A DNA stretch of 64,000 bases from Pirellulales bacterium (lineage in GTDB: Bacteria; Planctomycetota; Planctomycetia; Pirellulales; Lacipirellulaceae). The notes below the pieces were generated by a model. The model made no database searches. It saw only the letters and a program-made list of their open reading frames with translations, and was not told the origin of the DNA. Location of the stretch: NCBI GenBank assembly GCA_019636345.1, contig JAHBXQ010000001.1:835985-899984 (forward strand), written 5' to 3'. Position 1 is the stretch's first letter; every line of letters starts with the position of its first letter. The translations under genes were made by a program, and so were the position numbers. Shown here in pieces: positions 48,833 through 52,525 of this stretch.

Positions 48833-50290
48833 ATGAACTGCTCTTGGAATATCGCTCGCCAGCCCGCCGGGCGGCTGCTGTTGTTGGTTTGCGCGACTGG
48901 CTGGACGCTCGCAGCGTCGCGGGCCGGCGCTCAGGCCTCCACCGACGGGGCTACGACGGCGGAGACGCCGTCTTCAATCGCCAACGCCGGCGACGAACCG
49001 AACAACCCGCTGACGGTCGAGAATTTGGTCGGCAACGCCGTGTCGCTCTCGAACCAGAAGTACCCCGACGTCGAAAGCGCGATCAAGCGCTATCGCAACG
49101 GCGACGGCGAGGGCGCCTACGACTATCTCAAGATGGCCGTCGAGAAATCTCCCAAGCTGCCGCCGGCCGAGGTGATCCTCTCGAAGATGCATCTGCTGGC
49201 TCGCAACGGGGCTCTCGCCGCGCAGGCGCTCGAATTGGCCGCGATGCTCCATCCCGACGATCCCGAAGCGTACCTGTTGCTGGCGGATCAGGCGTTTGGC
49301 GCTGGTCGCACGGCCGAATCTGAGGCGTTGTTCGAGAAGGCCGAGACGTTGGTCGCCAAGTTCGACGCAAATGCAAAACGCAAACGCGACTTTGAAATCC
49401 GCGTGCTGGCCGGCAAGAGCGCCGTGCTCGAGCGTCGTCAGAAGTGGGACGCGGCCCTGGCGCTCTTGCAGAAGTGGAGCGAGATCGATCCCGACAGCGC
49501 CCCGGCCCGTCAGCGGTTGGGGGTCGTGCTGTTTCGGCTGGAGCGGGTCGCAGACGCCGTGAAGGAGTTCACCAAGGTCCGTGACTTGAACCCCGACGCG
49601 AATCACCCCTACGTCTTCTTGGGTCAGTTGTTCAACCAAACCGGCGACGCCAAGCAGGCCCGCGAGAACTTTGAGAAGGCCTACAAGGCTGAGTCCAACA
49701 ACGCGAACACCGCGGCGTCGTACGCCGAGTGGCTCGTCACCCAGGACGATCTGGAAACCGCACAAAAAGTCGCCTCGGCCCTCCGCAAGGGGAACCCCGA
49801 GTCGGTCGGCGCTCTGCTGCTTGACGGCATTATCGCCAAGCTCCGCAAGCAGCCGAAGCAGGCTGAGGAAGCGTTCACCAAGGTGCTGACGATCGACCCC
49901 TCGAACGCGCGGGCGACGGACATGTTGGCCTTGGTGCTGATCGAGAGCGACAAAGCCTCGGATCGCGAGAAGGCCTTGCGCTACGCCGAGATGAACGCCC
50001 AGCGATTCCAGAACAACGCGCAGGCGAACATCACGCTGGCCTGGGTGCTGTATCAGCTTGATCGGGCGAACGAGGGGAATCAGGCCCTGCAACAGGGCGC
50101 CCAGGCCTCGGGGGGGCAGCTTAACGCCGACTCGGCGTATCTCGTGGCCCGGATCATGCTGAAGCAAAACCAAAAGGAGCAAGCTCTCACCACGCTCAAG
50201 CAACTGCTCGAGCAGGCCAACTCGGGGCCGTTCCTGTACCGTTCCGAGGCCCAGAAGCTGCTGAAGCAACTCGAAGGGAGCGCCGGCTGA
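48833..50290 (+). CDS. Large exported TPR-repeat protein
   Basis: 485 residues with a signal peptide ending near AGA-QA (about 34). After an acidic linker come about nine TPR units, for example AYDYLKMAVEKSPKLPPAEV, ALALLQKWSEIDPDSAPARQRLG, AVKEFTKVRDLNPDANHPYVFLG, AEEAFTKVLTIDPSNARATDML and ALTTLKQLLEQANSGP. It should be a periplasmic protein-interaction scaffold. No enzyme domain was seen. Strong hairpins follow the gene at 50326 and 50527. Confidence 0.88.
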   Translation: MNCSWNIARQPAGRLLLLVCATGWTLAASRAGAQASTDGATTAETPSSIANAGDEPNNPLTVENLVGNAVSLSNQKYPDVESAIKRYRNGDGEGAYDYLKMAVEKSPKLPPAEVILSKMHLLARNGALAAQALELAAMLHPDDPEAYLLLADQAFGAGRTAESEALFEKAETLVAKFDANAKRKRDFEIRVLAGKSAVLERRQKWDAALALLQKWSEIDPDSAPARQRLGVVLFRLERVADAVKEFTKVRDLNPDANHPYVFLGQLFNQTGDAKQARENFEKAYKAESNNANTAASYAEWLVTQDDLETAQKVASALRKGNPESVGALLLDGIIAKLRKQPKQAEEAFTKVLTIDPSNARATDMLALVLIESDKASDREKALRYAEMNAQRFQNNAQANITLAWVLYQLDRANEGNQALQQGAQASGGQLNADSAYLVARIMLKQNQKEQALTTLKQLLEQANSGPFLYRSEAQKLLKQLEGSAG

Positions 50291-50325
50291 TCGCCGCCGG
50301 CAAGGGATCGCAAGGGCGCAAAAAA

Positions 50326-50363
50326 AGGTCGTGGCAAGCCGATCCGTCGTCTTGCCACGACCT
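50326..50363. terminator. Perfect 13-bp hairpin with A-run on its left
   Basis: AGGTCGTGGCAAG pairs perfectly with CTTGCCACGACCT across a 12-base loop. A run of seven A's precedes it on the plus strand, which is a T-run after the hairpin when read on the minus strand. It therefore looks like a terminator for minus-strand transcripts, and the stem alone may also stop the plus-strand TPR gene that ends 35 bases before it. Confidence 0.75.
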
Positions 50364-50526
50364 CTATCCTGAAGCAAAACACGACAAGTGCTTCGCCCTC
50401 CCGTTATCGTTGTAGTAGGTGTATCGGCTGCACGGAGCGACGGCCTCCAGGCGATTTCGGGAATTCTGCCCGCCTGACAAGCGCGGGCGGGCTCTCTCGG
50501 CAGTGGCGGCGGGCTCAATAAAATCA

Positions 50527-50644: not shown

Positions 50645-51358
50645 CTAAAATCCGTAGCCGGGCAACGTCGTCGGCAGGGGTTGAACCTGCGGGGCGGGCA
50701 GCGCGGGCAGCGATATGCCGGCCGGCATTCCCGGCGCCGGCGCCATCCCCCCGCCGCCTCCGAACGGGGCCAAACCAGGCATTTGTCCGCCGCCGGCCAT
50801 CCCCATGAACGACGAGGCGAAGCTCGTCGCCGGCATTTGCCCCAGGACGATCCCTCCGGCGGGCTCCACGTTCGGCAATTCGCAAGCCGGGCAGTCCTGA
50901 CATCCTTCTGTCCAGCGGGCCGTCAGGCAGCCATGCCCCTGGTCCCACGGGCCGGCGTGGTCGCAATCGCGGCCGCACCCGCCGTGGCGACATCCGTGTT
51001 TCAGGCAACCCTGGCCCTTCTGCAACTGCAATGGCGAGCAACCGCAGTGCGACTTGTACGCATGGTCTCGCCACCGGTACCGGCAGGCGCCGTAGGGCGA
51101 GCAGTATCCATCATAGAGCGGATGGATGTTCCGGCAGGCGGCCGAGGTCGTCCGCGAGCTCTTGCACGTGCTCCACAGGTCGTACCGGCACGAATCGCAG
51201 TGCCGCGGCACGAAGTAGTCCTGGTTCGCGTTCCAGACGCAACCCCCGTCGGCGGCGCTGGTCGCCCCGTAGGTCTGCAGGAAGAGCCGAGCGTGGCTGG
51301 CCGCGGGCGCGAGAGCCAGCGGCAGCACCGCGACGGCGATGGCAAGGCGTGGTTTCAT
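50645..51358 (-). CDS. Cysteine-rich exported protein of unknown function
   Basis: 237 residues with a signal peptide ending near SHA-RL (about 23). The mature part up to about residue 170 holds 17 cysteines, often in CxC or CxxC pairs (CDSC, CGC, CQDCPAC) with many His and Gly. The remaining C-terminal part is Gly/Pro/Met-rich and probably disordered (GGGGGMAPAPGMPAG). The lack of enzyme motifs and the Cys/His richness suggest a disulfide-stabilised or metal-binding surface protein. I do not recognise a named family. A single start gives the clean signal. Confidence 0.82.
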   Translation of the reverse strand: MKPRLAIAVAVLPLALAPAASHARLFLQTYGATSAADGGCVWNANQDYFVPRHCDSCRYDLWSTCKSSRTTSAACRNIHPLYDGYCSPYGACRYRWRDHAYKSHCGCSPLQLQKGQGCLKHGCRHGGCGRDCDHAGPWDQGHGCLTARWTEGCQDCPACELPNVEPAGGIVLGQMPATSFASSFMGMAGGGQMPGLAPFGGGGGMAPAPGMPAGISLPALPAPQVQPLPTTLPGYGF

Positions 51359-51574
51359 GGACTGAGCGGGCGGGGAGCGCCGAAGCCGGCAGGGAGGGGA
51401 GTTTTCCGCTGCGTAAGCATGGAACGCAACCGCACGCCCGGCAACCTTATAGGCAAGACTTCCCCCGTCCCGAGAGTTTCCCGCTTCGCTACAATCGGCG
51501 TGTCCGGCGCGATCGGCCGCCGGCCCCGCCTGGGGCGTTCTCCGTCACTCCGTCCCCATAGGACTTTGGGCAGC

Positions 51575-52525
51575 ATGGCAGGCATCCTCGCGGCCTCCCC
51601 TGCCCTGTTCCGCTGGTTTGCCGCACTTGCTGCCGCGGCGACCGCGCTGGCTTGTTGGAGCGCGCTGCGGCGGTTCAGGGGGACCACCTTCGCCGCCCCG
51701 GTCGTCTGGGGAGCGGTCGGAGCCGGGACCGTTGCGGCGGTCGAGACGCTTCTGGCTGCGGGTGCGCTCGCGGACCGGTCGCTTGCCGCGTCGGTCGCCC
51801 GCTACGTGGCGGCTGCAGGGACGTTCTGCGGCCCCATGGCCGTGCTAGGCGCCAAGCGTCCGCAAGACCGCGGGTGGCAGTGGATTGTCGCCGCGTTGTG
51901 GTTGGTTCTGGCGCTCCCGGCACTGCAGGGCATTGTCACCCGCGCCGGGGAACGCGTGGAACTGGGGGGGCTGTGGGCCGCGTTTCTGCTGGTGCTGGCC
52001 GTGTACAGCACGGCCCTCAACTACGGCCCGACGCGATTCGCCTTCCCCGCGACGCTGCTCCTGGCCGCCCAGGGAGCGCTGCTTGCTCCGGCGACGCGGC
52101 GGGGACAAGCCGTCCTCTGGAGCGACGACCAGTGGACGGCGTTGGGAGCCGGATTGCTGTTCGCCGCAATCGTCGCGGCCTTCCGCCGGGGCCGCGTCGT
52201 TGGTCCCGGCTTTGCGGCGTCCGACGGCAATCACGCCGATCCTGCACTGCGGTGGCTCGCCTTCCGCGACGCCTTCGGGTTGTCGTGGGGCTTGCGCATT
52301 CAGCACCGGGTGAACGAAACGGCGCGGCTGGCCCGTTGGCCGGTGAGGCTGAGCTGGCGCGGGTTCGTCGCGGCGGATCCGGATTCGCCGTCGGCAGTTT
52401 CGCCCGACGCGCCGGCGGTTGCGCCGCCGCCGGATGCGAACGAAACCCTCGACACGCTCCTCCGCCGATTTGAGCGGAGCCGACCGCCTGAGCAAAAGCG
52501 TCCCACGGTTTCCGGGTTGGCATGA
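51575..52525 (+). CDS. Multi-spanning hypothetical membrane protein
   Basis: 316 residues from an ATG at 51575. About seven hydrophobic segments occupy residues 10-210, separated by short Arg-containing loops. The C-terminal 100 residues are soluble and end in a Pro/Ala-rich linker. No family motif was seen. Its stop overlaps a possible ATG (ATGA at 52522) upstream of the MgtE gene, suggesting coupled expression. The soluble part starts with DPALRWLAFRDAFGLSWGLRIQHRVNE, which resembles no motif I know. Confidence 0.75.
   Translation: MAGILAASPALFRWFAALAAAATALACWSALRRFRGTTFAAPVVWGAVGAGTVAAVETLLAAGALADRSLAASVARYVAAAGTFCGPMAVLGAKRPQDRGWQWIVAALWLVLALPALQGIVTRAGERVELGGLWAAFLLVLAVYSTALNYGPTRFAFPATLLLAAQGALLAPATRRGQAVLWSDDQWTALGAGLLFAAIVAAFRRGRVVGPGFAASDGNHADPALRWLAFRDAFGLSWGLRIQHRVNETARLARWPVRLSWRGFVAADPDSPSAVSPDAPAVAPPPDANETLDTLLRRFERSRPPEQKRPTVSGLA

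Follow-up and report, generated by a model that had tools for sequence, protein, structure and literature searches.

Chlamydiae carry an envelope that is cross-linked through the disulfides of cysteine-rich outer-membrane proteins. The wall of planctomycetes has been suggested to consist mainly of protein, and the cysteine-rich YTV proteins, described as known only from planctomycetes, occur in wall preparations (PMC8567305). Beyond these proteins the planctomycete envelope is poorly known. At the level of regulation, small RNAs of the Csr type have been described for many Gammaproteobacteria (PMC7652899), and an ANGGAX hexaloop placed directly on a stem constitutes a high-affinity site for CsrA/RsmE (PMC4005645).

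Here we describe a locus of a Pirellulales bacterium (GenBank assembly GCA_019636345.1, contig JAHBXQ010000001.1) in which a gene for a cysteine-rich, exported-type protein is followed by a structured RNA. The features lie within a stretch of 64,000 nucleotides, hereafter the window (Table 1).

Table 1. Features of the cysteine-rich gene, its product and its surroundings, in window coordinates
Feature	Position	Strand	Evidence
Convergent TPR-protein gene flanking the RNA	48833..50290	+	Gene scan
Structured RNA, 84 nt	50323..50406	-	BLAST, folding, covariance model; 238 nt downstream of the Cys-rich CDS, same strand
Cys-rich exported-type protein CDS, 237 aa	50645..51358	-	ORF; single copy; homologues; purifying selection
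Cys-free Gly/Pro/Met/Ala-rich tail, residues 175-237, unconserved	50648..50836	-	Alignment; composition
Conserved motif LPNVEPAGGIVLGQ (family form LPNVEP....LG), residues 161-174	50837..50878	-	Alignment
Linker, residues 112-160, variable and rich in Cys (eight) and His	50879..51025	-	Alignment; only Cys 128 aligned to Cys in 14/16
Conserved mature domain, residues 24-111	51026..51289	-	Alignment; Cys 40/107 and 75/86 each lost together
Predicted signal peptide (residues 1-23), cleaved behind SHA	51290..51358	-	Sequence reading of alignment; pattern in 16/16
Block related by eye to the relatives' promoter-like element TTGCGTTTGCTC..CATGTTT	51409..51430	-	Comparison upstream of the gene
Divergent gene, hydrophobic protein without Pfam family	51575..52525	+	A homologue adjoins each of the 16 intact Cys-rich genes in divergent orientation

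Read as an ORF, the cysteine-rich gene opens with ATG and ends with a stop after 237 codons; it is present once in its genome. Among the six closest of 120 pairs of homologues (63-67% identical), dN/dS is about 0.05-0.11 in the domain and about 0.10-0.28 in the remaining sequence, at dS values of 1.1-3.9 that are near saturation. Since dN lies well below dS, this is a genuine coding gene under purifying selection. An earlier, sequence-only reading had announced an exported protein with 17 cysteines and a Gly/Pro/Met-rich tail, and its description is borne out. The N-terminus resembles a signal peptide (MKPR, a hydrophobic run, then SHA ahead of R24), cysteines occupy positions 40, 54, 57, 65, 75, 86, 92, 105, 107, 118, 123, 128, 132, 144, 153, 156 and 159, and the 71 residues from 167 to 237 comprise 17 Gly, 12 Pro and 6 Met and no Cys. 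Relative to seven other window genes, hand-picked by us (34 Cys in 3227 aa, 1.05%), at least 17 Cys in 237 aa has a binomial P of about 1e-9. The 'dense CxC/CxxC pairs' of that reading do exist, in slightly smaller measure than the phrase implies (one CxC, 105-107; three CxxC, 54-57, 153-156 and 156-159), and its 'many His' amount to nine, a mild excess only (P about 0.01).

All 16 intact members of the family have, in our reading of the alignment, a hydrophobic run and [AVS]-x-[AG] directly ahead of R-[LH]-[FL]; signal peptides were called throughout by such reading or by a home-made rule. The domain that follows carries the motifs QTYG, WN.NQDYFVPR, CK, AC, HP.Y.GYC and YG.C.Y..RDH.YK..CGC, and is 56-76% identical to that of the window protein in the other 15 members, over 88-96 aa. 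Further on, the linker (about residues 112-160), in which C, H and G alternate in the window protein, differs among members in its length, its sequence and how many Cys it has. A tail rich in Gly, Pro and Met does not characterise the family: G+P+M content ranges from 18 to 57% across the 16 members, and more than two tail Met occur only in the window protein (5) and one relative (16, L010). AlphaFold models of the full protein and of the 88-aa domain had mean pLDDT values of 40.6 and 45.5, too low for a fold search. Ahead of the start codon in three relatives (L005, L009 and L038), a short inverted repeat, GGATT...AATCC, flanks a purine-rich box and might mask the ribosome site.

No family name had come to mind in the sequence-only reading, and the databases supplied none: the window protein has no family in Pfam, no match in NCBIfam and no relative in the PDB at E up to 10. 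A Pfam scan of all 16 members returned a single match, of one member to LTP_2 (E 0.025), which we take as chance. The family is thus unknown to the libraries searched, and no title listed in searches of the open-access literature concerned the protein or the neighbouring RNA. A protein search of 59 relatives, own genome included, gave 11 carriers, all of the same family, taken as Lacipirellulaceae by reference to Adhaeretor mobilis, which NCBI assigns to Lacipirellulaceae, Pirellulales, and which is among the 13 loci with a homologue in a collection of named genomes. With a profile of the 11 sequences, 17 of 43 family genomes matched (16 intact genes and a reduced one in G023), and a search of 296 genomes of the order returned the same 17. 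A draw of 392 genomes from the phylum gave two matches, the own genome and a weak one of 28 positions (E 0.008). The profile-detected remnant in G023 (L040, L053) keeps signal peptide and C-terminal motif, its Cys domain being gone; in G035 (L057) a local search of eight loci found only a weak C-terminal stretch (E 0.006). The gene has been lost more than once and, being absent from several relatives, is dispensable rather than essential.

Like the YTV wall proteins (PF07639), the window family is of exported type, rich in cysteine and known from planctomycetes alone. It differs in having one 88-aa domain in place of YTV repeats, and in its distribution (16/43 family genomes, versus YTV matches in 59/59 relatives including the own genome). 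That positive control also gave 13 YTV matches in the host genome; none was obtained in any of the 16 members (Pfam scan, E up to 1).

Behind the gene lies a stretch whose DNA, by BLAST, is 79-91% identical in other members of the family, the flanking proteins being far more diverged. Folding of 87 nt gave two hairpins, with a U run behind the second (z -6.4). The RNA reads 5' GGGAGG, hairpin 1, linker TTCAGGATA, a terminator hairpin around whose loop A[N]GGA[N] sits, and the U run. In an alignment of 35 distinct family sequences, from which a duplicate and the L037 row (5' part off pattern) had been dropped, 99.6% of pair cells are standard, and double changes fill 42 cells versus 9.4 in shuffles. 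A covariance model detected the RNA in 103/196 genomes of the order at E up to 0.01; in a phylum draw of 294 genomes it was found in three only, all Pirellulales. By BLAST, each of 78 carriers has it at one place. So does the own genome, a third match there spanning only 16 nt (E 0.59), and second covariance matches, among the matches listed, are mostly the opposite strand of the same hairpin. Of 81 sequences searched order-wide, 77 were hits at E up to 3e-9 (L204-L207 fell below). In these, 95.1% of cells pair and double changes affect 20/24 pairs; double-change cells number 226 versus 58.2 in shuffles (0/500 shuffles as high; slid controls at most 54), in an alignment fitted to the covariance model, which favours the structure.

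Rfam, searched with the window region and eight other loci, gave nothing at threshold and five sub-threshold matches in all, of which only mir-335 in L196 overlaps the RNA (22 bits versus 64). The RNA is structured, strongly conserved and, as far as searched, apparently undescribed. It could conceivably be identical to the Rhodopirellula-1 motif of 2010, entered in a table without an Rfam number, although that motif is given for Proteobacteria too (PMC2864571). A short ORF was considered and rejected; in our reading, a GTG frame can be followed through the family sequences, yet other families preserve neither its start nor its frame, and the sequence changes track base pairing.

The A[N]GGA[N] motif stands in the terminator half of all 77 RNAs, TCAGGA is present in 73, and GGA occurs within the first 12 nt of 70; there are on average 3.7 GGA per RNA versus 1.8 in shuffles. 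The A and the last N of the loop are able to pair in 52/75 sequences, which may shrink it to four nt in many of them. RNAs of the RsmZ type are likewise small and terminator-bearing; they have unpaired GGA, and A[N]GGA[N] crowning a stem, an arrangement that the window-type RNAs may share. As described in PMC4005645, RsmZ has eight GGA motifs, whereas window-type RNAs mostly have three to four, and the Csr/Rsm RNAs such as RsmZ come from a different phylum. With a loop motif that resembles CsrA sites, the RNA is a candidate Csr/Rsm-type sRNA. The presence of csrA is uninformative here, since the gene is universal in the order (196/196 genomes, RNA present or not; seven matches in the own genome, up to 14 elsewhere).

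What precedes the RNA in other Pirellulales was followed at 74 further loci, all from genomes without an intact window-type gene (the genus of one, G034, does have carriers). In seventy of them the sequence ahead of the RNA runs to 1200 nt or more, the four shorter ones being left out. In 45 of the 70, an exported-type ORF on the same strand ends within 350 nt of the RNA, compared with 4/70 on the antisense strand and about 2/70 in block shuffles; this count follows from the home-made rule alone, admits ORFs up to 370 aa and may include unrelated ones (L142 and L161 are doubtful). By the rule, 25/70 loci have no exported-type ORF. With hand curation, ORFs in this slot number 48/74 (L157, L158, L183 and L200 added by eye, twelve starts moved later, and the rule-found L142, L161, L167 and L179 not taken). 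Examples among L135-L208 are L151:2205-2741 (+), L168:2358-2783 (+) and L175:638-1390 (-). The slot ORF is consistent in families f12 (5/5), f19 (5/5), f13 (4/4) and f15 (9/10), and inconsistent in f14 (0/2), f8 (0/2) and f17 (5/11). Cysteine makes up at least 4% of 31/45 slot ORFs, in sequences unlike the window protein; the other 14 fall below, one of them having none, and in f18 and f16 the slot protein has 0-4 Cys.

Within the family, kinship to the window proteins extends to further genera: against seven of their slot proteins, profile-profile comparison gave 33.0 (best of 60 column shuffles 18.2), and these relatives share the GYC region and an EPAG...LG motif, in some genera as IEPAG...LG.LP, related to residues 161-174. 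Outside the family, group f15 scored 26.8, versus a null maximum of 24.95, over a match of the form C...[YW].GYC...CGC, which is marginal and no more than suggestive of homology. No homology signal reached the six remaining groups: f17 stayed within its null (13.65), and five others scored 11.6-19.7 (E 0.05-0.45, given without a shuffle null). The best hmmsearch match to a slot protein, L160, had 7.9 bits, less than the highest score among 1920 shuffled proteins (8.3). Probably, the window protein represents the form that a single clade has of an exported protein evolving fast; across the order, the slot claim rests mainly on position.

Turnover of this kind could also be the mark of a secreted weapon or recognition protein (a contact inhibitor, a bacteriocin-like protein or a phage-receptor decoy) diversified by an arms race. 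Unlike exported-type proteins do fill the same slot in different families, and loss is repeated within the clade. However, the domain is on average under purifying, not positive, selection within the clade, the gene is single copy, PADLOC has no defence model for the protein, and the four neighbours scanned with it give only generic TPR and SNF2-helicase similarity. We regard this explanation as unlikely.

The sequence-only reading had offered metal binding or heavy disulfide bonding for the cysteines, and had made their conservation in homologues the point to check. Conservation is found for eight of the 17 (40, 65, 75, 86, 92, 105, 107 and 128, each kept in 14-16 of the 16 members), and fails for the other nine, aligned in 1-10 members; most His are likewise unconserved. 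Seven of the well-kept cysteines sit in the domain, Cys 128 in a gapped region of the alignment. Cys 65 and 105 are invariant (16/16). Cys 75 and 86 are found in 15/16 members, both missing only in L037, and Cys 40 and 107 in 14/16, both missing only in L009 and L039; Cys 92, absent in L011 and L039, has no partner of matching pattern. In the tree, L009 is sister to L011, which retains 40 and 107 (support 96/91), L037 is sister to L036, which retains 75 and 86 (97/95), and L039 is a long branch placed apart from L009 and L037. There have therefore been three independent double losses, two of 40/107 and one of 75/86. Taken singly, the pairs have Fisher P values of 0.0083 and 0.0625, with 66 pairs compared (12 variable domain Cys columns). 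Two column pairs with identical patterns arose in 0.16% of 20,000 column permutations (P 0.0016), which ignore relatedness.

Since conserved cysteines vanish in pairs, the pattern favours disulfides over metal ligands. Bonds are predicted for 40-107 and 75-86, and the invariant 65 and 105 are likely the third pair. Several features speak for a secreted metal binder, either metallothionein-like or scavenging metal, with Cys and His of domain and linker as ligands: the nine His beside 17 Cys, the alternation of C, H and G in the window linker, H79 and H99 inside conserved motifs (kept in at least 90% of the 16 members) and the eight conserved Cys, linker Cys 128 (14/16) among them. Yet the remaining linker cysteines are aligned in 1-10/16 members, the linker of L038 has a single Cys, and the two domain pairs are lost jointly, as disulfides predict; of five neighbours scanned, only an MgtE-like gene two places off is metal-related. 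With a linker so variable, metal binding is not supported and appears improbable; of the two options, heavy disulfide bonding fits better.

Upstream of the gene, TTGCGTTTGCTC..CATGTTT is present in 13 of the 15 gene-bearing relatives and in both remnants, and in none of four loci without the gene, although its second half turns up in two of the latter when the pattern is relaxed. The window's own copy is too diverged to match the pattern and matches only its own letters. The element recurs at 15/74 other RNA loci, always on the sense strand and upstream of the slot ORF, and its spacing resembles that of a promoter. It was ruled out as a driver of the RNA, since it follows the Cys gene. Of the flanking genes, the divergent one has a homologue in 24/43 family genomes, among them all 16 in which the Cys gene is intact; at the 34 RNA loci with both flanks, that homologue is near 9 and the TPR gene near 13. 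The notion that the locus is conserved for its RNA, with the ORF as a dispensable, drifting passenger, draws on the RNA's presence in all eight genomes that have the divergent neighbour and lack an intact Cys gene (G009, G010, G015, G022, G023, G027, G034 and G035; the RNA is distant in G034 and on another contig in G010), and is very improbable given dN well below dS, residues conserved across 16 genomes and a promoter-like element that tracks the Cys gene, not the RNA.

We consider it reasonably probable that the gene encodes a Sec-exported, disulfide-locked protein of the envelope or surface, the version that one Lacipirellulaceae clade has of a fast-evolving exported slot protein. The gene, its family, the conserved cysteines with their paired losses and the locus are established here, whereas export, disulfides and surface location are inferred. 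After export by Sec, the signal peptide would be removed, and three or more predicted disulfides (65-105, 75-86 and 40-107) would lock the mature 88-residue domain; the variable Cys-rich linker and the flexible Cys-free tail may permit further cross-links or spacing. Export to an oxidising compartment followed by disulfide locking is the best-supported mechanism, with the wall, the surface or free secretion as possible destinations. The best reading likens the role to that of YTV wall proteins, of which the protein is not a member. With the chlamydial cysteine-rich outer-membrane proteins, which belong to a different phylum, it shares the concept of an envelope cross-linked by disulfides.

For an envelope whose proteins are so little described, the family offers a concrete, testable map of predicted disulfides, and does so in a named, completely sequenced relative, Adhaeretor mobilis HG15A2. 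More interesting than the protein itself is the locus, RNA included: exported-type proteins turn over quickly there, and the flanking RNA is nearly unchanged. As a tentative and still rather doubtful proposal, Pirellulales may possess a module in which a one-place Csr/Rsm-like RNA titrates CsrA and a hypervariable exported protein, mostly disulfide-rich, is encoded just upstream. If the RNA binds CsrA, it would provide control for an order where csrA is universal and usually multicopy, and Planctomycetota would have in it, as far as we know from the open-access literature, their first decoy RNA of the Csr type. The slot would then be the site at which families develop surface proteins of their own under shared control.
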